DNA from: Agaricus subrufescens
Taxonomy: Eukaryota > Basidiomycota > Agaricomycetes > Agaricales > Agaricaceae
Reading direction: 5' to 3'
NCBI GenBank assembly: GCA_029945375.1
Contig: CM057066.1
Coordinates: forward strand, 1,860,001 to 1,924,000
DNA: 64,000 nucleotides
Shown here: positions 325 through 61,321 of the stretch, one piece after another
Position numbering within the stretch: the stretch's first letter is position 1
Layout of the letters: the number at the start of each line of letters is the position of its first letter
Notes under the pieces: generated by a model
The model's input: the letters and a program-made list of their open reading frames with translations, nothing else
Database searches by the model: none
Told to the model about the DNA's origin: nothing
Made by a program: the position numbers and the translations under genes

Positions 325-1519
325 ATGCCGCCTTTACCCCGCTCTGTAACCGTTCGCGTTGCTCTACTCATTTGCGGTCACTGGACCAAAAAACTCAAGG
401 AGCTCAATGACGACTATCTCGAAATGTATAGGCGATGGTTGCTTGCCTCTTTGCCGCCAGGCTCGGGATTCAAGCTCCTCATGGATGGTTACGACGCGCG
501 AGAAGAGGAGTATCCTGAGGAGGAGCTCATTAGCCAGTACGATGTCATTATGGTCTCAGGATCGCGTAAGTTGGTTTACTTCTCGCCTGAAATCTCCCAT
601 TAAGTATTGGCCACGCGCCATCTCTAGCCCACGACGCATTTTCCACCGAACCATGGATTACTGGCCTTGTAGAATTTGTAAAGTATATGGGTATCTACCA
701 TCCGGAAACTAGATTAGTCGGTAGGTCTTATATGTTGCACGTACTTTTTACACGCGTTTGTTTATTGTTCGGCACCAGGTATATCCTTTGGGCATCAGAT
801 TATCAGCCGGTCTCTGGGTGGTGAGGTTAAGAGGAACCCCAAAGAATGGGAAATTGGACCTACAGTTGTTAAATCCACATATATGGGCAAATTGCTCTTC
901 GGTGTGGACAAAATCGTAAGTCACATCTTCCAAATCCGGAATGCCACTTTAAGCCGACAAGCACTTTGTCAACCAATAGGCACTCCAACAATTCCACCAG
1001 GACACCGTAGAAATAGAACCGCTGGCCGGTTCTCTGGCATCCGGTGAAATTTACCTTTTGGCCCAATCCGACATGACCGCCAATCAAGGGATCGTCAAAT
1101 TCTACCCACTTTGCCCGACTTCAGAAACTCCAGAGGATCCCGATTCCGATTTCAGACTGGCAGAACAAGTACATATTTTGACTTGTCAAGGACATCCGGA
1201 ATTCGACGAGCAAACAGTCACTGAACTTACTCATCAACTGAATGAGAAGAAACGTATTAATGAGTTTGCATACACAAGCTACTTTGGTGTAACAGGTGCA
1301 GGGCATGACCAGGAACCATTAATTAAGGAAGGTACTGGAAGGAGGTGGGGATCAGATCATGATGGTGTACTTGTGATCGGTAAAACTTTCTGGGAGATAT
1401 TCGGCGTGGACTATAGTGATGATGCACGGGTTGCGTTGAAGCCCAAAAAGCCAGTGAAGCGTCCGAACCATGTCTGGAGAAGACCCCATGCTAGCCACCT
1501 TCTTAGAACTGATGTATAG
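325..1519 (+). CDS. Class I glutamine amidotransferase-like protein, copy A (nucleophile Cys replaced by Ser)
   Basis: Four exons join in frame (325-565, 628-720, 779-915, 980-1519) into about 336 residues. The fold is that of the GATase1 family of yeast YLR126C and plant gamma-glutamyl peptidase GGP1, which hydrolyse glutamine or gamma-glutamyl amides with a Cys-His-Glu triad. The N-terminal strand (VRVALLICGHW), the nucleophile-elbow region and the QGHPEF box carrying the catalytic His and Glu are all present. The elbow reads GISFGHQ: the codon at 784-786 is TCC (Ser), where copies C, D and E have TGC (Cys). The frame is otherwise open and splice sites are normal, so the gene may be expressed but is probably not an ordinary amidase. 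The start is the first ATG before the conserved strand. The substrate is unknown. Confidence 0.85.
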
Positions 1520-4720: not shown

Positions 4721-5746
4721 CTACCAAACGCCCAACGTTTTCCAAAACACATTCCCGAGTATCCTCGAGCCATTCGGAATATCAGCTACTCCATTAAACG
4801 CCGCAACACGAGCGGCTTCGTTATATCTTCGATTATCTTCCAACGTAGTCGCATCAACAACACCATCCGCAACCATTTCCCCTGTCAGACTCGTCACTAT
4901 CGATGGAGTAAATTCCGGATGGCCTTGCACCGTCAGGATATGAACATGTTCCAGTAAACTCGACCTTCGAACATCAGAGTCGGGAGAATACGGATAAAAT
5001 TTGACGAGTCCCTGATTGGGGGTTTTGTTTGAGCATCCTAGAACGTGTAGATCGCCTGAGGTGAGTGGGCTAGAAAGCGAAGCCAGGGGTACATGGTCCC
5101 GGTGGATATGTTCTACTTCCTAACAGAGTGTCAATACCAGTGGAGCCGAGTTTAGACGCACCTACCAATTTGTTCACACCGAGTAATAGTCTACCGACAT
5201 TCGTGGCATGAACAATGCCTGACCCTATTTCCCAACCTCTCTCGTTTTGTTCCACTCTTCCACCCAGTGCTCGGCTAACAATCTGGTGTCCGAGGCAGAT
5301 ACCTGTGATTTATTTAACATGACTCAACAACCGTGTTGAATATACGCTGACCATAAAGTCTAACTTGAGAGTGCTTACTCTCGACGTGGCGTACATAGTC
5401 GACGAGGCGGGTAATCCATGGGACATTCGATCCTGCATCAGCAGCTAGTGAAGCAAATTAATCTCAGCCTCGTATACTTCAACCAGCGAACCAAAGACAT
5501 ACGTGATCCAGTAATCATGACCGCATCATACTTGTATAGCTCATCATCGCGGGGATACTTTCCCTCCATCACATCATACGGCTCCAATGACAGAGTAACA
5601 CCTGATCGAGGTGGAAGTGTACTCTTGAGCCAACGCCTAAACATCGACTGATAGTCGCCATGGTAAACAACGACCCTTTTGGAAAACTTGGCACAGACAA
5701 GGAGAGCAACTCGAATTGTCCGAGCGGGTGGTATGGACACGGGCAT
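4721..5746 (-). CDS. Class I glutamine amidotransferase-like protein, copy C (catalytic residues intact)
   Basis: Minus-strand gene with about four exons: exon 1 starts at 5746 (MPVSIPPARTIRVALLVC), followed by a segment ending in SKHSQVRLYG, an exon with the elbow GICLGHQIVSRALGG, and a last exon through QGHPEFTPSIV to the stop at 4721. The nucleophile Cys (TGC, complement of 5295-5297) and the HPE box are both present, so a working Cys-His-Glu triad is likely. It is the most diverged of the array: its C-terminus ends at FWKTLGVW and lacks the charged Lys/Pro tail of copies A, D and E. A gamma-glutamyl hydrolase or transferase role in the cytosol is plausible from the family, but the substrate cannot be told from sequence. 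Confidence 0.82.
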
Positions 5747-16014: not shown

Positions 16015-17199
16015 ATGTCTTCCTCTACTTCTAGGATAGTCCGCTGTGCTCTATTCGTCTGTGGCTATTGGACCAAAAAGCTTCTGGAAATAAATGGCGA
16101 CTATCTCCATATGTACAGGAAATGGTTGAATGCCTCCTTGCCGAGAGACTCTGGATATAGGCTCATCATGGATGCCTACGATGCCCAAAGTGGAGAACAA
16201 CCCGAAGAGGGCCTCATTGATAACTACGACGTCGTCTTGATCTCAGGGTCGCGTTAGTAGAATAGTTCCCCCTATGATGTTTCGCGTTGGAAACTGATTA
16301 ATCACCACTTACAGCTGAGGACGCCTGGTCATCTGCTGAGTGGGTTGTTAAACTTGTCGATTTTACCAAGGATGTCGCCATCAATCATCCAGACGTTAGG
16401 CTCGTCGGTGAGTCTTTTCTTTCGCCCTCGATAAAGTCACTTCTATTTAATTCCGGTGCATCAGGTATTTGCTTCGGACATCAGATTATCTGTCGTGCCT
16501 TGGGAGGAGAGGTCGGCAGAAACCCTAACGGATGGGAGGTTGGTCCTACTCTACTCAAAACCACCCACGTGGGCAGGTTGCTCTACGGGGTCAACAAAAT
16601 AGTAAGTATTTTAACCTTTCACCAGGTGATAGCATTGAACTGACAGTTTTGTTGACAAATAGGCACTCCAAGAACTTCATCAAGATGCTGTTCCTCTTTC
16701 TTCCTTGGCTGACCATCTGGCAGCTGGTGAAATTTACCTTCTGGCACAATCCGATTTGTGCCCGAATCAGGGTATTGTTAAATTCTATCCACTGGGCCCA
16801 AATTCGGAAAATCCGAGTTTCAAATGGATCGAATATGTTCACATTTTGACCAGTCAAGGACATCCGGAGTGCAATGAACGCTCTCTGACCGAGATTATTC
16901 GTCAACGTGACGAGAAGGATGCCATTGATAAAAATGCAGTCAATGGTTATTTCGGTCCTCGTGGTGCCGAGAGTGAATCCGAACCTATCTCTAAACATGG
17001 AACTGGAAAGAGGTGGAGAGAAGATTATGATGGTGTACTTGTGATCGGCAAGTCGTTCTGGGAAATATTTGGGGTGGATTATAGTGAAGATCAGCGGATT
17101 GTGGCGAAGCCGAAGAGACACGGGAAGGATGCAGGCAAAGTTGTTGGTGAACCGAAGAAACCTAACTCCAACTATCTCATACAGCAAGGCACCGCTTAG
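16015..17199 (+). CDS. Class I glutamine amidotransferase-like protein, copy E (catalytic residues intact)
   Basis: Exon 1 starts at 16015 (MSSSTSRIVRCALFVC). Three short introns follow and the last exon ends at 17199. The elbow GICFGHQIICRALGG keeps the nucleophile Cys (TGC 16470-16472) and the SQGHPEC box keeps His and Glu, so the triad is complete. The C-terminal FWEIFGVDYSED and the Lys-rich tail match copies A and D. This is the best candidate for the active enzyme of the A/D/E subgroup. Family knowledge (YLR126C, plant GGP1) suggests hydrolysis of gamma-glutamyl or glutamine amide bonds in the cytosol. A TATA box lies 52 bp upstream. Confidence 0.88.
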
Positions 17200-48635: not shown

Positions 48636-49565
48636 TTACATCGTCTTCTTCGTTTTAGTTGTTTTACCGACCGCGACTTTGGATGCGATATTCAACTGCT
48701 GAACAATGTCCCGGCCTAAGACCCAAATGATAAAAGAGGGTACAAGGAGCCACAATCTGTGTAGGTCGGTCAATACACCTGACTTTGTGCACACAAGCTG
48801 AACACCTACCCGTTGGGTACAACCCACAATGTGATCAAGGTGAATACATCGTTGTGCCTGATATTACAAAAGCCGCAGAAATAGTCATTGAGCCAGTAAA
48901 GGGCTGTCTTGGAAAGTGTCATGCTGATGGCAATTAGCCCAATTACCGGGGCGCCCGGCGATTGAGCACCATGAGCCAGATAAACATATACAAGGTTGAG
49001 GATTGTTTCGACGATGTTCATGAAAGCTTTATCATAGGTCAACATGACTGAATGAAGATACGTGCGCACAATGAACATACATTGAGCATTGGTGAAGCCG
49101 TTGTTGCTCTCGAGCGCTGGGAGGCCGTAAACCTAGGGTATTGCATAATAAGACAAGAGCTTGAAGATAACGAGATAATATACACACGTAGTCAATCTAT
49201 TGATGTGTCAGTGACAATTCCGTACTGCATGAGATTCAGATAGAACCTACCTCCTGATACAACGCGTAGGGGCTCCAAATCCAATGAAGACTGCCACCCT
49301 AGTAGAATTGATAGATATGTCAGGGGGCTTAGCCCGGCGGCGGAGACCGTCATCCCTAGATGGCAGCGGTCAACATGAACCACGGTACGAACCTTCATCG
49401 AATGGGGTCTAGCAGAGAATGAATTGGTGAACAAGGTTGGATACCTTACGCATCGTGTCTAAACGGGGGTACACACCTCATGAAACAATACCCAACGTCC
49501 CATAGTACGACTGGCGCTGTGAGGATAAACCAAGCACTAATCCACCAGTGCGTTTTTACTGCCAT
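48636..49565 (-). CDS. Conserved basidiomycete polytopic membrane protein (EXPERA/EBP-like topology)
   Basis: Starts at 49565 (MAVKTHWWISAWFILTAPVV) and ends at 48636. Exons continue through VLWDVGYCFMR, RPHSMKGG, SLHWIWSPYALYQE, a nine-nt micro-exon for IDY (49196-49188) and VYGLPALESNNGFTNAQ. The rest has three more spans: NIVETILNLVYVYLAHG, the APVIGLIAISMTLSKTALYW span and LWLLVPSFIIWVLGRD, with a Lys-rich tail. About five spans in all. I recall close homologues in many Agaricomycetes with the same HWIWSPYxLYQE and FTNAQSLLN signatures; they are annotated as hypothetical. The overall layout resembles emopamil-binding/EXPERA membrane proteins, but that link is only suggestive. Ends in KTTKTKKTM, not a clear ER signal. 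Confidence 0.78.
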
Positions 49566-50674
49566 TTGGTGCGGGAAGTCGAAGGAATGGGAAGGAAAAT
49601 AACTTTAGAGACAGGAGCGGCTCGAGGATGGACCGTGGGTGCATGTCCCACAGTGTGTGATATGCCGAGCCCAAACTGGGATTTGTATCTATTGCCGGGC
49701 CAGGGTTTACCCGGTCAGCTGGTCGGTCGTAACCTCGACTGCACGAGACCGCATACCGCCGGCAGGGTTCGACTGCTCAGATCTGCACACCCGTCAAGCA
49801 TCGAGGCCCAAGGCGCCTGCTATGTGCCTGGCAATTTTGGTACCTTGACATGTCTCTACCGTTGTATCAAAATAGACACTGCGTTCACAACCCCTGCAGC
49901 TAAGTCAAATCACGGGTTGATGATACTCTGCACCAGTCTAGGTCTAATGGCGAATATCACAAGAATCTACTCCTCACTAGGCGTCTTCGACTTTCGCAGA
50001 CGATTGTCCCAAAGAACCGCTCTGTGCACGAGGTCAAATCCATGGTGATCTTGACAAAAGGGCTCTCTGGCTTGGGATCTTGACATGACCTTACCATGGA
50101 AACACTGAGTGATGTGGCAACCGAAGTCTGATATTCCCTTTGTCCAACGCGACGTGATTTCCCAGTTGGGCCCAGGGCAGTCCCTTGCTATCTTGGAAGA
50201 CTAGGGTAAACTTCAGAAGTGTTGTCACACGTATCAAATGGCTAAGAGGTAAGTTACTTTTGTATACAGGTCGACCGGCATCGTTCCCGCATAGCCATGA
50301 CCCATGACCCAAAGTGTCTGCGAGTACGTACTACCAAGAAGAAAAAAATTTTGCCTCGGCCATCTCGCCCGAAGTCAATCAACTAGTGCCGGGGAACAGC
50401 AGTGCCTTGTGGCATGTACCTGGCAGGAGGACACAGTCTTAGATTGGCGACGTAACGCCAGGCACCGGCAAAGGTACCGTCCAATGAGCAGAAACCTTTA
50501 TTCAGGGTCTTCCATCAATGGAAGCTAAGCTGTGAGCCACCGCTAAGTATAAAAGGTCTTCCGTTCACTCAGCATAGCCTAGCACACAACAGAAAAGTTC
50601 CACGGTCTTATCCCCGTCCCTTCTCCCTTACCCTCCCGCTGTCCCAGAGCTCAGATCTTGTACCCTGCTCTATA
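49566..50674. other. Intergenic region and promoter of the repeat-peptide gene
   Basis: About 1.1 kb between divergently transcribed genes. Frames such as 49548-50048 lack motifs. The TATA element at 50548-50555 is the only recognised site. Confidence 0.5.
50548..50555 (+). promoter_or_regulatory. TATA box of the repeat-peptide precursor gene
   Basis: TATAAAAG lies 127 bp upstream of the ATG at 50675, followed by a C/T-rich leader ending in CTATA just before the ATG. Confidence 0.55.
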
Positions 50675-51119
50675 ATGCGCCTCTCGCTTCTATTTGTCGT
50701 TTCTGCTATCGGCGCTGTTGTTGCCGCTCCCATTCCCGTGGGTATTCCTTCTTAAGCCTGTTAACAGCTGAACAGCACGCTGACCACAATATCTTTCTCT
50801 CGCTTCGTCTCATGTAGGTTGACGGGGAGGCTGCAGTCGCAGTGAGTCCATTGGCTTAATGTTCACTTCATTCCATGCAAACCTTCGTTCGAAGCGTGAC
50901 CTACCACATGGCCAAGACTGGAGACGTGATTTACCTCATGGTCAGGACTGGAGACGTGATCTACCTCATGGTCAAGACTGGAGACGTGATCTACCTCATG
51001 GTCAAGACTGGAGACGTGATCTACCACATGGTCAAGATTGGAGACGTGACCTGCCGCATAGCCAGGACTGGAGACGCACTGGCGAAGATGCGTCACTCGT
51101 GGCGAGAAATGACGCCTGA
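50675..51119 (+). CDS. Secreted precursor with six RR-separated octapeptide repeats (Kex2-processed repeat protein)
   Basis: Three exons (50675-50737, 50818-50841, 50895-51119) give a 103-residue protein. It begins with a signal peptide (MRLSLLFVVSAIGAVVAAP), then a short spacer (IPVDGEAAVA). Exon 3 starts exactly at the first repeat. Six tandem 10-residue units RDLPHGQDWR follow; the sixth has Ser for Gly. Each unit joins the next through Arg-Arg, the dibasic site cut by the Golgi protease Kex2, so six copies of DLPHGQDW or DLPHSQDW would be released after Kex1 trimming. A short tail ends at LVARNDA. The layout is that of fungal KEP proteins, including RiPP precursors such as ustiloxin UstA, and of Ustilago Rep1. 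No tailoring enzyme is visible nearby, and the peptide itself is unknown to me. Confidence 0.8.
50895..51074 (+). repeat. Six-copy 30-bp coding tandem repeat
   Basis: Six exact-length 30-bp units run from 50895 to 51074. Units 3 and 4 are identical at DNA level (CGTGATCTACCTCATGGTCA...), suggesting recent duplication. Units 1 and 6 are the most diverged, but almost all changes are synonymous; only unit 6 alters the core (GGT/GGC to AGC). Confidence 0.95.
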
Positions 51120-53040
51120 TGGATACCCCCAAGTATGTTCCGGTTTCTCAAACACCTGGTATCTTGTGCTCACATATCTGTCTCAGTTGCGAAGATCAAG
51201 CTGAGGTTGCGCTACCTACTTATTGAAGGACATAGTCCTCGTTTTCATATGCCATATTTCTCTCCGTTGGACCTCCGCTGTTGATAATTTGTTCGATATT
51301 CGCTTTTCCCCTGGGCAAAGCGCCAACTTGTTTGTATGTTAAATACACAAAATACTGTAGACAATTTTATTAGACCATGAGGGCTTACTAGTATTTCTTT
51401 TTGTTCTTCTCGCCGGCACACCTGTCCCTACTGCTTTTAAATCGACATCATTCTTTATTGAGTACATCGACAAAACCAGCGAATGAGGTACTGGGCGGCG
51501 TTCCGAATCGGACATACTTGCTCTCTTGTCAGCCTGCTGACTAGATACCGGCAAATGCAAGGACACCAGCCCTTACATTCGGTCATCATACTTTGTGTGT
51601 GTACATAAAAGATATGTTGACCACGATAGACTCTCATTTGTGCGAGAGAGCACCCTGCGGAGTTACGACGGCTCTATGTTTTTAGCCAATGGCAGGCGGC
51701 ATTTTCGCGCATCATTGTTTCCCGAACATCATGATGTCGAATGATAACGGTTCCTAAAAAAAATGCTGCCAACGGAAGGTAATCCATGTGGGTGACAGTG
51801 ACGTATGAGACTAAATGACCATGGCTTTAGGATCAGTAACTCGGATATATGGATATGCCCTTCGCTTGATGACTTGATACTCCAGGGAAAACACAAGTCA
51901 TGTTCCGGATATTCCGGATGCATGATTGAGGGGGGACGTGCCTGGGTTCCAGACTATCGAGCCGAGAAGATACCTAGTCGCGTCGTTGCAGGAGAAAAGC
52001 TTGTGTTTATAGATTGACAGCCCCGGGTTTTGCTTTGTGAGCTGAGGTACTTGGTTCATTACGGGTGGGGGTCAAAAGGGACTACGTTTAAAACTAGGTA
52101 CGGTGCCGCGAGGCAAAACTTTAATCTGGTAATGGGGACGATCGATGAAATTCGAATTTCGAAGAGTAGGGTATGATGCCCGTAACGACGCACGGAGCCG
52201 ATTCGAATTTTGTCAACGTAGATACTAATGTAGATTTCCTGCCAATCTTTTTCAACCGTCGGCTACTAGGTCGCTTAGTAGGTCAGTCTTGTGCTTTGAT
52301 GTTAGCTCTTAGGTCAATATCAAGTCACCAATGCCCAGACAACATTAACGAGTCGGATGGCATTGAGAGTAGCTAGGACTGATTCAATTTCATTACTCCG
52401 AGTTGGGTCAAAGGGTAAGTGTTCTGATAAGCCCCAAATCATTTCGGAATAGCCTGAAAACCAAAATAGCGTGCAAACGCTCCTCTTTTGATTTGAGCTT
52501 GACTATGAACAGCCAAGAGAAATTTGTCATTAAGTTCTATATCCACTATATGTCCGAACGTGGTACTACCATGGGTACCCCAGCTGACCAAGTAGAGTGA
52601 GAGATACACCGGGAGAAGACTTGGCAAGACAAGAAGATAACGACGAGGAATCACAGAGAACGTCGTGCACAAGGACTATGGCTGTTGCGCGCTCAAGATA
52701 ACGGATCAGATGCAGTAGCGTGTATGTGGCGTCCCAATGGCACAAAATGACAGGAGAACCAAAGTCTGTGCTTCCACTACTAAAGCGAGGATAGTCCGAC
52801 GACTATTAGTGGCATAGTATAAAGAAGAGAGGAGATTGTGAGAGGTAGAATTTAGAAGAGGAGTTATCCTACTCTCTCACGATCCGGCCCACCCTGAGGT
52901 TAACCTGATATTACTCCATTGGGTATCAGCCAAGGCTTCGGTGTTTCCTCATGTCCTTCACCATTCTCGCCGTTGACATATAAGAAAAACAGACCAGCAA
53001 GTGCCGGGCGCATCATTTACAACCCTACAATCATTCCTCC
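51120..53040. other. Intergenic region without a supported gene
   Basis: About 1.9 kb. No tailoring enzyme, transporter or regulator gene is seen next to the repeat-peptide gene. A TATAAAG element near 52819 may belong to the bestrophin gene that follows. Confidence 0.5.
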
Positions 53041-55362
53041 ATGTCGCACCCGAAGGCACTGCCGAAACTTGATATTCCTGTAAGTCTACTTTTTCAGCGG
53101 TAAAGCCCCCCCTTACAATAGATTTTGATGCTAATAAAAATTCCATAAAAGATTGGGACTACGTTTTCGAGAAGAGAACAGCGGCGCGGGCCTGATCCGT
53201 GAGGAATATTTTCGAACCTGGCCGCAGTAGCCAACTAAATAGGAACGACAGATTCCAACCAGGGACCGATATCGTGAATGCTGTACTGGCAACCGCTTTA
53301 CTGCGATGCTGGCACATACTCATCTTCTTCGCCGCCTGGTCAACGTTGATTACTATCCTCAACCATAGAGGGCATGGGCTAGTAATCGACTCCATCCTCG
53401 TCACCGTGTGAGAACTTTTTTTTGCTACTCCGAACACTTTACCAGCGATGACCGAGGGCTAACTTGTGTGTGTCGGTGCATAGGACTGGTACTGTACTAG
53501 GCTTCGTCATATCTTACCGCACGACATCATCTTTTGAACGATACAACGAAGGGCGGAGGCTATGGAGCGACATCATAGTTGCAACGCGGAATTTCGCTCG
53601 AACTGTCTGGTTCCACGTACCAGGTACTGTACTTCAAGCTTTTTCCTGATGCGGCGCTCAAGTAATTAATGTTATTATCAGATCACGCGTTCTCTCCAGG
53701 CGTCAAAATGGAGGACTTAAGCGAAGAGCAGAAACGTGATGTCCAAGCCAAGATGCTGGTAGAGAAGAAGACGATCATCAACTTGTTGGGTGCATACGCT
53801 GTTTCCGTCAAGCACTACCTAAGAGGCGAAGTTGGACCTGGATTCCAGTAAGCTTTTCATTTCTCAGATCCCAGAACCCACCGCTATATGCCTGCCTTTT
53901 AGAGACCTGTACCATAGCGTCAAGTTCCTTCCTCCCTACGCACTTCCAGCAGGATTACCTTCTCCTACTGGCGAGAATGTCACAAGTGAACATCCCATTA
54001 CCGTTGTTAGGCAAGGGACAAATGCAAGTCTTCCGTCTCCTATACCACGTGCACGCAAGCGCAATGATCGATCACACTCAACCGACGATACGGAGGGTTT
54101 GAACCAAACAACATATTTCGCATCGCAGCCAACCCATTTCTCAATACCTTTCGAGGAGACGATCGATGAATCCACAGTCCCAAAGTCCCGAAAACTGAAG
54201 AGGAATGGAACCGTGTACAAAGAAGACGACCTATTCCCCGCTCGTATGCCACCGAGATACTCTATCTTTGATTTTTTCCCCTTCTCGCTCTTTGTTGGGG
54301 GTCTCGCTGAACGTGGACAATGCGAAGGGAGGAAAGCTGCCCGACTACGAGCGAAGATGATGACACATAATTTCCCTTTAGAACTTTCCTTATATCTTGT
54401 TCGTCTTCCTGAACTGCTTTTTCTCCGAAGTCTATACTTACGGGGGCGCTTTTTCAGAGTTCATACATCGCTGCGCTACAAAAACGAAAAGTCTGTGATG
54501 ACCCTACACTCAGTATGTACCCGACCAATCTGTCATGTGCATTGTTTCCTCATATGTATCACCTAGACTCCCTGATGAACTCTTTAAACGAACTCGTAAA
54601 CAGCTTAACAAATCTTGAACGGGTCCTGACCACTCCCATCCCCTTCTCGTTTGTACTCCTTTATTTCATCAAGCCGCCATCCTGTTAATCCAAATTCCCA
54701 GCTATGCGTTCCATTTGTGGTCTGTAACCACCCTATATTGTCTTGCCCTTGTGCGTTAGCTCCTTTTACGTCGATAATTCCGGCCTGACTCATCAACCTG
54801 AATAGCCCTTCATGGTTTGGGAAGTCCTTGCATGGTTGACGATACCAGCTAGTATCATTATCGTGAGTGTTGAAGTCAAACCATGGAATAGCGTTTCTGA
54901 TTTCTGCATAAGAGTTTTATCTTTTATGGGTTCCTCGTCGCAGGGGAGGAGATTGAAAGTGGGCAATTAGCTAGCTCCCTTGCAAGTTGAGACTCAACAT
55001 TCTTGCCCCTCAGATCCTTTCGGTTACGACAAAAACGACCTTGTACGTTACCAACCAACACGCTCTTTCATATCTTTTGAAACTCAATGTTTTCTCAGAA
55101 CCTTGATCATTTCACAGAAAACATAATCAGTAAGTTATAGCATGTCCCGGATATATAGAGTTTTAATAATCTAATTGTTGTAGAGGAAGAGCTAGAAGCT
55201 GTCACATCAATACCACCCCCAGATCCGGCTGTATGGGCATTTATGCCTGAAAATGATCACCTATTCGCGAGTGCGAATAACCCTATGCCTCGCGCACCCA
55301 AAGAGTGGGTGAGCGAGGGACCTTACGCGATTTGGAGTGCCTTAGATACTCGAGAACTTTGA
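53041..55362 (+). CDS. Bestrophin-like (UPF0187) anion channel, paralogue 2
   Basis: About a dozen exons from MSHPKALPKLDIP (53041-53079) to the stop at 55362. Motifs parallel paralogue 1: LLRCWHILIFFAAWSTLITI, LGFVISYRTTSSFERYNEGR, NFARTVWFHVPDHAFSPG, then VEKKTIINLLGAYAVSVKHY, DLYHSVKFLPPYALPAGLP, an acidic/Ser-rich insert, LYLSSYIAALQKRK, LERVLTTPIPFSYAFHLW and FIFYGFLVAGEEIENPFGYD. The final exon encodes EELEAVTSIPPPDPAVWAF and a tail ending WSALDTREL. Predicted anion channel of a fungal membrane. The central insert differs strongly between the two paralogues while the membrane core is conserved, which points to divergence in regulation rather than in the pore. Confidence 0.85.
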
Positions 55363-56400: not shown

Positions 56401-58508
56401 ATGTCGGTGCAACTTCCATCCCAGTCATTGCACCAGAATAAACACCTCTCGGACAGGTCGGACTCTGGTTCTTCTGGCAGAAGCGTGGGTGACAGTTTCT
56501 GGATGAATTCGCCATCTCCAGAAGCTGAGGACGAGAAAGACGACGAGGATAAGTCGTGGGCATTTGAAATAGTGGGAGAAGAAGTGGACGTTAATGGACA
56601 TGTTCGGTAAGTCACTACCGCTCATGGGTTCACTTCCGGAGCTAACTCGCTGATCCTTCTACGATAGATACGAGGTGATAGGTTTTCTCTACGTGAATCA
56701 TCTTTTGCCTGACCAACAGGCAATAGGTCGATTGGGATGGCTGGGAACGGGCAGATGGAACTACTCAGACTTGGCAACCAATGGAGGACAACTTGACTGC
56801 TGAGTGGCGGCGTATTCAAAAACGACGGAGAGACACCATACTCAAAGATTCGATTGATATTGAATTGGGTCCACTCTCTGGAGTAGATATGCACAATGAC
56901 TCGACTCGACTCCGAGCACAAGCATACGAAGAAAAGCTAACAATGAGGAGGCGCTATAGCCCGGAACTCGAAGAACAAATGACCAAGCTCCTGGCTGAGA
57001 AGCTCGGTCCTGGAGCCGACTTGAACGACTCTAACTCTCCTACAAGTGCAGGCCCTGAAACTCCGCCTGGTCGAGGACTGAGACTTTCTACTGTTCGTCA
57101 GCAACAACATAAATCTGTGTCACTACAGCTGCAGGTATCCGCTCGAGGTGCGGATGATGCAATCATACCAAAAATGCCCTGTTCCTCGGTGTGGTCAAAC
57201 AAGTTGGCACAAATTGCCTCGGCTAAACATTCGGGAAGCTCTTCGAGAACACATAATTTTTCATGGACGCCAGTGACGCTCCCACAACCATTACAGACCA
57301 TAGATTTTGCGGTCACTCATTTTCGTGAATCTCGAGATAGCGCTTCCCATAAACGTAAGGTCTCGGGGAAGATGATGCAAAAAAACCGGTCAGTGCAGAA
57401 CTAGTAGCCAAATCTAACGATCGAGCTGACACCGAATATAGGGAACACAGGAGTTCGAAAAGAGCACGAGTCATATCTCCACAGATGTCAGTCGAGCTGG
57501 AAAGGAGAGAAACCCAAGAAGACAGAGTAGACACTGCCGAGATGGGTGAAACTGAGCATGACGAGAGTACTGAGAGAGATCGTGTGGCGAGGAAAAACAG
57601 CCGATTTTTGGATGGCCGACTTGAGTACTTGAAGGTTTCAGATACAAAGATAGGAGTCAACCCCGAGTACGGTGAGCGATTTACGATAGGTTCGGTAGAG
57701 GATGAAGACTGCCGAACTTTTCAAGATCAATCTCAGTATGCAAAGACGGAGGGAGTAGCCGAAACCCACAATAAATCCACGATGGAACCGATGAAGCCCG
57801 AGGGAAGATACGGCCAATTTTTTGATAGCAAGCTTGAACGAGTAGAGGATTCAGAGGCGGAGATGGATGCCGATGTCGCCGATTCACGACTGAGGGCGAG
57901 GGTTCAGATGGTTGACGAGCCAGCTATGTATCCGGTCACGATAAAGGCGCTTCCAAACAAAGAAAGTGAAAATAAAGGAGTTACGCGAAGCGGCCGAGTA
58001 AGGAGGCTCAAAGTAAAACATGGCGAGGGGAATCCTTGTGATCGCTGTGCAAGGTACGGATTTGTCTGCTTAACACGTAAGTCATATCTTGGATCAAACC
58101 GTCTTCTGCCTTTACAATAAGTGATTCAAGGGGACCGAGGCATTGCTTGCCTCAGATGTCATCAAATCAAACAGAAATGTGGACCGTTGACCCAATTCGA
58201 GCCGCTTCCCCGGGCTAATCATACCTTGAAGCTGCAACCCGACAAATCGCCTTCAGCCAAATCCAAAACAAAAACTACTAGGAGCCCACAAGGCCCGGTA
58301 AGTTTTTTGGTCAAGGATCAATAATTTCCAACTCAGCAATGTCGTGGAGGGTCAGAAGAAGAGGGCTGCGGAGAAGTCGACTCTGGAAAGGAGGAGAAAG
58401 GCTGAGAAACGAGAAAGACGAAGGGCCCGAGGTGAGCAAAACAGGATGAAAAAAGGGACGGAGTCTGAAAAGGAGGTGAAGGGCACTAAGGAAGATGAAT
58501 CCGGGTAG
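56401..58508 (+). CDS. Chromodomain protein with Zn(II)2Cys6-type cluster, partial paralogue of the H3K9 methyltransferase
   Basis: Six exons: 56401-56606, 56668-56674 (7 nt), 56727-57354, 57399-58076, 58122-58297, 58356-58508. Residues about 48-100 form a chromodomain ([36 protein letters not shown]) that should bind methyl-lysine. The first ~270 residues are close to the N-terminus of the methyltransferase at 58901-61321, down to the same micro-exon. The pre-SET and SET domains are missing. They are replaced by an acidic, disordered region and a Cys array CX2CX6CX11CX2CX6C (NPCDRCARYGFVC..., ACLRCHQIKQKC), which fits the Zn(II)2Cys6 DNA-binding consensus. A highly basic Lys/Arg/Glu helix ends the protein. 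It may target DNA and heterochromatin together. The 44-nt intron at 57355-57398 avoids an early stop. Confidence 0.75.
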
Positions 58509-58900: not shown

Positions 58901-61321
58901 TCACCACATCCTGACGTACCGCCTACACTTTTTACTACCACAGAAACACCTTTTCGTACCAACAGTCTCAGTCATACTGCCCGATTCCATTGCATCCGCG
59001 CAAGCAGGATCATAATCCATGGTGAGTTCCGTCCCGGCTTTAATGAATTCTTTTGCTACATATGTGATATACGGACGGTTCGTCTGAGGAGGGTAACACA
59101 GTCATTGAGATAACTCACACTTATTACACAAGAAAAGACTTACCCCTGGTATTGTGTCGCATACCGCAAGATATATAGTCATATTTGGAGCACAAGAATG
59201 GCTGTTACGCAAAAAGGATCAGCTTAGTTACGCTAGAGTACAAATCAAATGCGCACTTGACAAAATGGGTCCAATTTCCTGTAAAAAAGGCCAAATCGAG
59301 ATCGCAATGTCACAATCATGATGAGAAAGAACACAGACTATACACATACCTTGCGTCCTCGAATCAATGCTATATTTTTCTGTAAGGTCCCTATCATCAC
59401 ATTTCAAATCTTCTTGTCCGTCTAGATCAAAGATATATCCTCCGTCTTGAGAATTAGTCATTTTGTGGGCCATTTTACGGCTCCTTTGTCACAGGATGAG
59501 CTACAACTGTTTTGGCCATTCTCCCACTAATTTGACTCACAATAATTTCCTAGAGAATAAATAATGTTTGCCAGCGCTCAGTAGAGCGGGAAGAAACGCT
59601 CTTACCCGGAATACATTCCCAGTACCTTACCGCGTACTACATCAATTGATGCGCGTACACCCCAGCCTTTCTCTTTTGTTTTGAAAATTTCCAGTGGAAT
59701 ATCTCGAGGTCGTTGAGAAACACGGTTTAAGCAGTCGGGACCACAACGGCAAGCCTCAAAAGAACAGGTTAGGGCAGTAATGGTAGGCACAGAACAACCT
59801 ACTGCATTGCATTCCACTACTTCTACGTGTCTCGGTACAGCAAATGAAAAGAGTCCCTGTGATTGACAGCCATTAATAAATAATGCATTCAGAAACTCAC
59901 AGGCCATACGGATTTCGTGTACGCGAACGCAGTCCGCCCCTTATCATCCACCAACTCCGAAACACTTTGACAATCGCATTTTGAAGCATCAACACATTGC
60001 CTACAATCACATCCAACGAAGAAATCTTTTTTCGGCGGGTCAATATATGACGGACTGGAAGGCAAACCATTGAGTAGAAGAAACGTTCTGAAGACGAGGG
60101 GCATACTAAATGTAACCTCTTTCAAGGTAACGAAAACCCAACGAAAGGAACGGCATATCCTCATCGTCAACTTCATTCACAAACGTAATAGGTGCCGCGC
60201 CAGCGGCACGAGCAATCTTCGTCCATTTCTGAGACCACTCAAGTCGTGGAAGCGAACTGCAGCAATCAGTCAATCTCTGACATTTCACGAATACGAATCA
60301 AATACTTGACTTGTACATAGGTGCCTTGCCCTTGTCCGCCCGTGGCACGCTGGGAGAATCTCTGTGCACGACAATGATCAAGAAAAATTAGAGTGAAAAA
60401 AAGTGAGAATATTGATACCTCTGCTGCCTACTCTCATAACTGACCTCAATCTGAGAAACCTTACGCTTGCGGGGGGCACGATCTTGGGAATCACGGGTAG
60501 GTGCTACTATAGCACTTTCTGATTGTGAATAGTGTGGCGTGTCTACGTGCACTGAGGGGAAGGTGCTCTGGGTCGGAGAGCTTCCAGAAGATGAAGCCGA
60601 AACGACTTTATACGATTTACTTGACCATGACGAAGAGGACGGCGTTCTGGACAACCTCGCACTGTCCCGATCCTGAGCTGATCCCTGCGGCTGTAGCGAT
60701 ACAGACTTCTGTCGGTGCTGACGAACAGTAGAAAGTCTCAGGCCTCGACCAGCCGAAAATGCAGGGCCTGCACTTGTAGGAGAGGGAGAGTCGTCCATGT
60801 CGGCTCCAGGACCGAGCTTCTCTGCCAGGAGGTTGGCCATTTGTTCTTCAAGTTTCGGGCTGTAACGTCTCCTCAATGCTAGCTTTTCTTCGTATGCTTG
60901 TGCTCGAAGTCGAGTCGAGTCATTGTGCAGATCTACTCCAGAGAATGGACTCAGCTCGATATCGATTGAATCTTTGAGTATGGCATCTCTCCGTCGTTTT
61001 TGAATACGCCGCCACTCAGCAGTTAAACTGTCCTCCATTGGCTGCCAGGTTTGGGTGGTCCCATCTGCACGTTCCCAGCCATCCCAATCGACCTACGACG
61101 CGTTGATAGGTCATGCGAGGGAAGATCCACATACAGCTGAATATATCACCTCGTATCTACCATAGAAGAATCAGTAATTTGACTCTTTAAATGAACACAT
61201 GATTGATATTGACTTACCGAACTTGTCCATTAGCATCCACTTCTTCTCCCACTATTTCGAACGGCCATTCCTCGCCATCTTGACCCCACTCGTCTTCAGC
61301 TTCAGGGGACGGTGAGTTCAT
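58901..61321 (-). CDS. SUV39/Clr4-type histone H3K9 methyltransferase (chromo, pre-SET, SET, post-SET)
   Basis: Minus-strand gene with about a dozen exons, stop at 58901. The N-terminal chromodomain reads [20 protein letters not shown] then [17 protein letters not shown]. After a disordered linker come [20 protein letters not shown], the pre-SET zinc cluster ([16 protein letters not shown] ... [12 protein letters not shown]), and the SET domain ([54 protein letters not shown]). The post-SET Cys knot CFCGSKKCR ends it. All residues expected for AdoMet and Zn binding are visible. The enzyme methylates H3K9 and binds the mark through its chromodomain to spread heterochromatin. The ATG at 61321 is the first in the chromodomain exon; this exon is open further upstream (SDSGSPVRRIDDGFW), so an earlier start exon near 61400-61430 is likely. 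Confidence 0.88.

Follow-up and report, generated by a model that had tools for sequence, protein, structure and literature searches.

A candidate KEX2-processed repeat protein gene of an agaricomycete, predicted to release the octapeptide DLPHGQDW

The candidate precursor gene and its repeat array

The window (the whole stretch of 64,000 nucleotides analyzed here) carries on its plus strand a short gene whose predicted product combines a signal peptide, a pro-region, six tandem octapeptide cores and a tail. The open reading frame starts with an ATG at 50675 and its TGA ends at 51119, the limits given in the earlier note, and the favored model consists of three exons with every junction in phase 0, for a predicted precursor of 103 residues. 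Its features, with positions in the window, are:

50548..50553, plus strand: TATAAA, 127 bases 5' of the ATG, observed by position and presumed in function
50675..50737, plus strand: exon 1, encoding the putative signal peptide MRLSLLFVVSAIGAVVAA (recognized by inspection) and the start of the pro-region (PIP)
50738..50817, plus strand: putative intron 1, 80 bases, GTGGGT...TGTAG
50818..50841, plus strand: putative exon 2, 24 bases, pro-region VDGEAAVA
50842..50894, plus strand: putative intron 2, 53 bases, GTGAGT...CGAAG
50895..51119, plus strand: exon 3 of the three-exon model, repeats and tail
50895..50924, plus strand: unit 1, R-DLPHGQDW-R (units 1 to 6 as read in the three-exon model)
50925..50954, plus strand: unit 2, R-DLPHGQDW-R
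50955..50984, plus strand: unit 3, R-DLPHGQDW-R
50985..51014, plus strand: unit 4, R-DLPHGQDW-R
51015..51044, plus strand: unit 5, R-DLPHGQDW-R
51045..51074, plus strand: unit 6, R-DLPHSQDW-R (Gly to Ser)
51075..51119, plus strand: final Arg of the last RR, tail TGEDASLVARNDA (13 residues) and stop

The protein layout is MRLSLLFVVSAIGAVVAA-PIPVDGEAAVAR-(DLPHGQDWRR)x5-DLPHSQDWRR-TGEDASLVARNDA. Written out from its N terminus, the same precursor starts with MRLSLLFVVSAIGAVVAAPIPVDGEAAVA, continues with the six R-core-R units and closes with one more R and the tail; each RR ends in an R that also opens the following 30-base unit. By inspection, an N-terminal hydrophobic stretch follows MR (Kyte-Doolittle mean of 2.54 for residues 3-18) and AA precedes the assumed signal-peptide cut.

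The way in which the signal peptide joins the repeats allows some latitude. If introns must be GT-AG and 45-200 bases long, and the frame must stay open from the ATG at 50675, across the repeats, as far as the stop codon, 22 models remain, so the connection is easy to make and several exact splicings are possible. The three-exon model was chosen by eye for its best-looking donor and acceptor sites. It places Ala-Arg before the first core; some single-intron models (e.g. 50742-50829, which needs a GAG acceptor) would place Lys-Arg there.

The earlier note had described six DLPHGQDW repeats joined by Arg-Arg, with DNA differing mostly at silent sites. Six units of fixed length are indeed present, but only five of the six cores are identical, the sixth being DLPHSQDW; similarly, RR follows all six cores, the dibasic flank being incomplete only to the left of core 1 (AR in the favored model). 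Each of the six cores ends in Trp. Tandem Repeats Finder reports two arrays in the whole window, and the precursor array has a period of 30, 6.1 copies, 89% matches and 0% indels. We also searched 288,001 bases around the window for at least three similar pieces between dibasic sites, the arrangement of KEX2-processed repeat proteins (KEPs): two places were found, the precursor gene and its second copy, and five simulated first-order Markov sequences of 300 kb each gave none. The silent character of the variation is borne out as well, since eight of the nine distinct base variants from the repeat consensus are silent, against an expected silent share of 20% over all single changes and 33% over transitions. 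The corresponding binomial p-values (2e-5 and 1e-3, with variants treated as independent) are optimistic, because repeats can exchange sequence. Gene anatomy, tandem array, simulation and silent variants together support the KEP-type reading that the earlier note had put forward.

That note had named beforehand, as a result counting against its reading, the failure to find a homologue with the same RR spacing, and this is the result obtained. We found no homologue of the precursor at E ≤ 10 among 5.8 billion proteins (5 and 707 word-sharing candidates), a set that includes many agaricomycete proteins and in which the search is limited by its word filter and by missing small-gene models; the RR spacing is thus left without comparative evidence of conservation. 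Within the genome, a search with the protein as query (E ≤ 10) hit the two larger exons of each gene copy, which makes four matches in all. A literature search yielded no copy of the peptide sequence, although an unnamed listing in supplementary tables is possible. According to the survey of 7878 KEPs by Umemura (PMC7329392), 2560 are without any homologue and most KEP types are unique at least at the genus level.

The lack of a homologue would also fit a gene that is no precursor, encoding instead a small secreted repeat protein that acts whole, or decaying without a product. Against this, the frame stays open through six units whose differences are mostly silent, RR recurs at fixed spacing, and TATAAA lies upstream; we consider such a gene quite unlikely.

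Two database matches were set aside. Pfam assigns a MORN repeat to the precursor in four stretches (29.9 bits against a curated cut-off of 22.5, E 4.2e-7), which, though above the cut-off, we judge to be a spurious short-repeat effect, the best stretch covering 10 residues of a 23-position model. With three units as query, four sequences of solved structures matched at E ≤ 10 (best E 1.2), and these were taken as chance.

Surroundings of the gene and its second copy

The Pfam scan covered 30 open frames of the window, and the nearest frames with a family among these are two exons matching PF25539:

46473-46706, minus strand: bestrophin-like exon, E 5.3e-10
53452-53649, plus strand: bestrophin-like exon, E 1.2e-11

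The precursor gene is flanked by these exons of two channel genes in divergent orientation. The longer frames beside the exons have no Pfam match, and we take them as further bestrophin exons on account of the resemblance between the two sides. The earlier note had seen no tailoring gene within about 2 kb on either side. To the left this holds for the two scanned frames (48806-49132 minus, 49506-50045 plus), neither of which has a Pfam match; to the right, the open frames lying wholly inside 51120-53119 were judged by size alone (at most 78 aa), and a gene of short exons is therefore possible there. Nothing seen among the scanned frames suggests a biosynthetic cluster, most short frames lying outside the scan.

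Farther to the left, at 43-44.5 kb of the window, lies a glycyl-tRNA synthetase gene (PF00587 match). Among the best 120 of 2408 matches (7998 candidates scored), its closest relatives are in Leucoagaricus sp. SymC.cos (79%) and Macrolepiota fuliginosa (78%), and further mushroom-forming fungi come next; these identities are rough because the query consists of parts of two joined open frames. We place the host among the agaricomycetes, probably in the Agaricales. Two further groups of similar frames were observed in the window. An inverted pair, 56727-57401 (plus) and 60391-61092 (minus), differs at 2 of its first 40 residues, has no Pfam match, and perhaps represents mobile-element remains. 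Three frames at 980-1516 (plus), 4724-5119 (minus) and 16663-17196 (plus) have similar starts, e.g. ALQELHQDAVPLSSLADHLAAGEIYLLAQSD; the two that were scanned have no Pfam match.

The 445-base gene occurs twice in the genome at 100% identity, at C10:1910675 (the window gene) and, 105 kb upstream, at C10:1805752 (its second copy). Both copies sit in direct near-duplicates of about 76 kb (approximately C10:1742439-1818639 and 1848146-1923526), the latter taking in window positions 1-63526. The near-duplicates align in three long pieces with 616 mismatches over 75,263 aligned bases (0.8%). The sole run of N in 288 kb, 100 N at C10:1848046-1848145, directly precedes the 1848146-1923526 copy, whose right edge meets a 388-base repeat present elsewhere in the genome. 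The near-duplicate is probably an uncollapsed allele, that is, two overlapping haplotype contigs placed in tandem by scaffolding; because the copy starts right after the 100-N gap, we regard this as likelier than a true duplication of the 76-kb region. Uncollapsed haplotypes, if confirmed, would double the window's genes. Elsewhere the assembly is not obviously doubled, given one match for the kexin P domain and one place for a DPP IV-type gene. We rejected the identity of the two gene copies as a sign of selection: 1655 of 7129 segments of equal length (445 bases, step 10) are also free of mismatches, so it says little.

Predicted processing of the precursor and alternative readings

The gene is very probably a KEP gene of an agaricomycete, from which linear DLPHGQDW and DLPHSQDW are secreted. 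This reading is based on what was observed, namely how the sequence is laid out, the repeats with their largely silent differences, and a gene in the genome that resembles kexin; from these we infer the splicing, secretion and cleavage of the precursor, the linear state of the peptides and any function of either. Directed by its signal peptide, the precursor would enter the secretory pathway and be cut behind every RR by a late-Golgi kexin; removal of the arginines by a Kex1-type carboxypeptidase would then leave five linear DLPHGQDW and one DLPHSQDW per precursor for secretion. The kexin-like gene is marked by a P_proprotein match above the cut-off (C4:1204855-1205031, E 3.4e-16), beside which we read by eye an open frame resembling a subtilase and, at the C-terminal end, an acidic tail. 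It is the one kexin P-domain match in the genome, in a search that gives lower bounds, whereas Coprinopsis cinerea and other agaricomycetes have three kex2 genes (PMC9769878), and we count this difference against the preferred reading.

KEPs, a name introduced by Le Marquer et al. (PMC6339444), occur widely among fungi, and most of their peptides are without known function (PMC9769878). The agaricomycete KEP peptides detected by Vogt et al. were linear and minimally modified: SGVAADW (Pleurotus) and SGTGEASAADW (Lentinula edodes, 7-fold repeat) were found in fruiting bodies (PMC9769878). QYKAPSW was obtained when C. cinerea KEP 490115 was produced in Pichia pastoris (PMC9769878). In the same report, six C. 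cinerea KEP knockouts had no visible phenotype and synthetic KEP peptides no antibacterial activity (PMC9769878), for which reason a function is not to be assumed; a role as a diffusible signal, or in encounters with other organisms, would seem the most likely. The DLPHGQDW core was not found elsewhere: the kind of gene is ordinary, the member new. What the gene offers is a single clean peptide of exactly predicted sequence, which can be tested directly for its presence, its modification and its effect. The calculated monoisotopic [M+H]+ is 967.427 for DLPHGQDW ([M+2H]2+ 484.217) and 997.437 for DLPHSQDW.

The usual dikaritin cross-link needs a Tyr in the core, and the motif HxxHC marks UstYa. 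In layout the precursor matches those of the dikaritin type, and an oxidase of UstYa or another type, encoded at some other place in the genome, might instead cyclize its cores, for example via Trp or His. The cores contain no Tyr, in support of the earlier note's expectation that a Tyr-type cross-link would not form. The genome-wide search for UstYa/DUF3328 genes (PF11807) that it had proposed returned 0 candidates, in a search in which no control gave a signal. HxxHC was also sought in frames of at least 30 residues over window coordinates 10,000-92,000, where it occurs three times, in frames 35, 55 and 73 residues long; the 73-residue frame adjoins the left bestrophin exon and is without a Pfam match. 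The Tyr analysis of Umemura (PMC7329392) echoes the need for this residue, and the same survey has a DUF3328 gene no more than 15 genes away for 103 of the 1680 KEPs from basidiomycetes. This figure shows that such pairings occur, and, being so small a share, it makes a linear product the better bet in basidiomycetes, whereas the earlier note had allowed for either a cross-linked or a linear peptide. Taken together, the missing STE13 signature, the missing Tyr and the missing UstYa match (a weak negative) make a cyclized product very improbable.

In ascomycetes, alpha-factor is read by Ste2. Within the KEP reading, DLPHGQDW could be an alpha-pheromone-like peptide, recognized by a receptor at the cell surface through its GQ turn and the aromatic residue at its C terminus. 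The core ends H-GQ-D-W and the alpha-factor of Fusarium circinatum, WCTWRGQPCW, ends R-GQ-PC-W (PMC11124031); KEPs with alpha-type features have been reported in Basidiomycota by Le Marquer et al. (PMC6339444). However, two shared residues and a final Trp in an octapeptide could easily arise by chance, and the resemblance may serve as a lead only. There is no XA/XP STE13 dipeptide, the basic site being followed by DL in all six units, and STE2 had 0 candidates in the genome, in a search where no control gave a signal. A DPP IV-type gene is present (two adjacent pieces at one place), and the cores contain no XA/XP for trimming. We therefore consider an alpha-pheromone-like role unlikely, and somewhat less likely still the specific idea of a mushroom signal that keeps the GQ-aromatic end of alpha-factor for an unknown receptor, with no Ste2 found and no STE13 trimming. 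For STE3 receptors, 17 exons were matched, spread over contigs C7, C10 and C13. Two groups of these exons, at C13:549890-552331 and 659642-663929, perhaps mark a pheromone-receptor mating locus.

Comparison with known peptide systems

Ascomycete alpha-factor precursors have a signal peptide, repeats and Kex2 sites (PMC9769878, PMC6339444), the arrangement predicted for the present precursor, and that of F. circinatum has GQ near its C-terminal Trp, as in DLPHGQDW (PMC11124031). Unlike them, the present precursor has no STE13 signature, its core has no Cys, and the genome gave no STE2 candidate in the search without a control signal. Dikaritin precursors (ustiloxin, phomopsin, asperipin-2a) likewise have a signal peptide and Kex2-cut repeats (PMC9769878); here the core is without Tyr and no UstYa candidate was found, the latter a weak negative. 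The Rep1 repellent peptides of Ustilago form amyloid-like fibrils (PMC9769878), and DLPHGQDW, being short and polar, would seem unlike them.

Among agaricomycete KEPs, C. cinerea KEP 490115 has RR sites and cores with a C-terminal Trp (QYKAPSW, QMRPPSW), as does our precursor, but it carries STE13 spacers and a different core (PMC9769878). The KEPs of Pleurotus ostreatus and P. eryngii (1091723, 1439342) and of L. edodes (2599) also have tandem short cores between dibasic sites, with STE13 XA/XP spacers in Pleurotus that the present precursor lacks (PMC9769878). In a comparison by peptides rather than full precursors, the detected Pleurotus and Lentinula cores end in -AADW and share -DW with DLPHGQDW, and beyond this final DW they are unlike it (PMC9769878). 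The gene provides a further candidate with a -DW end, next to the -AADW peptides already detected in cultivated mushrooms.
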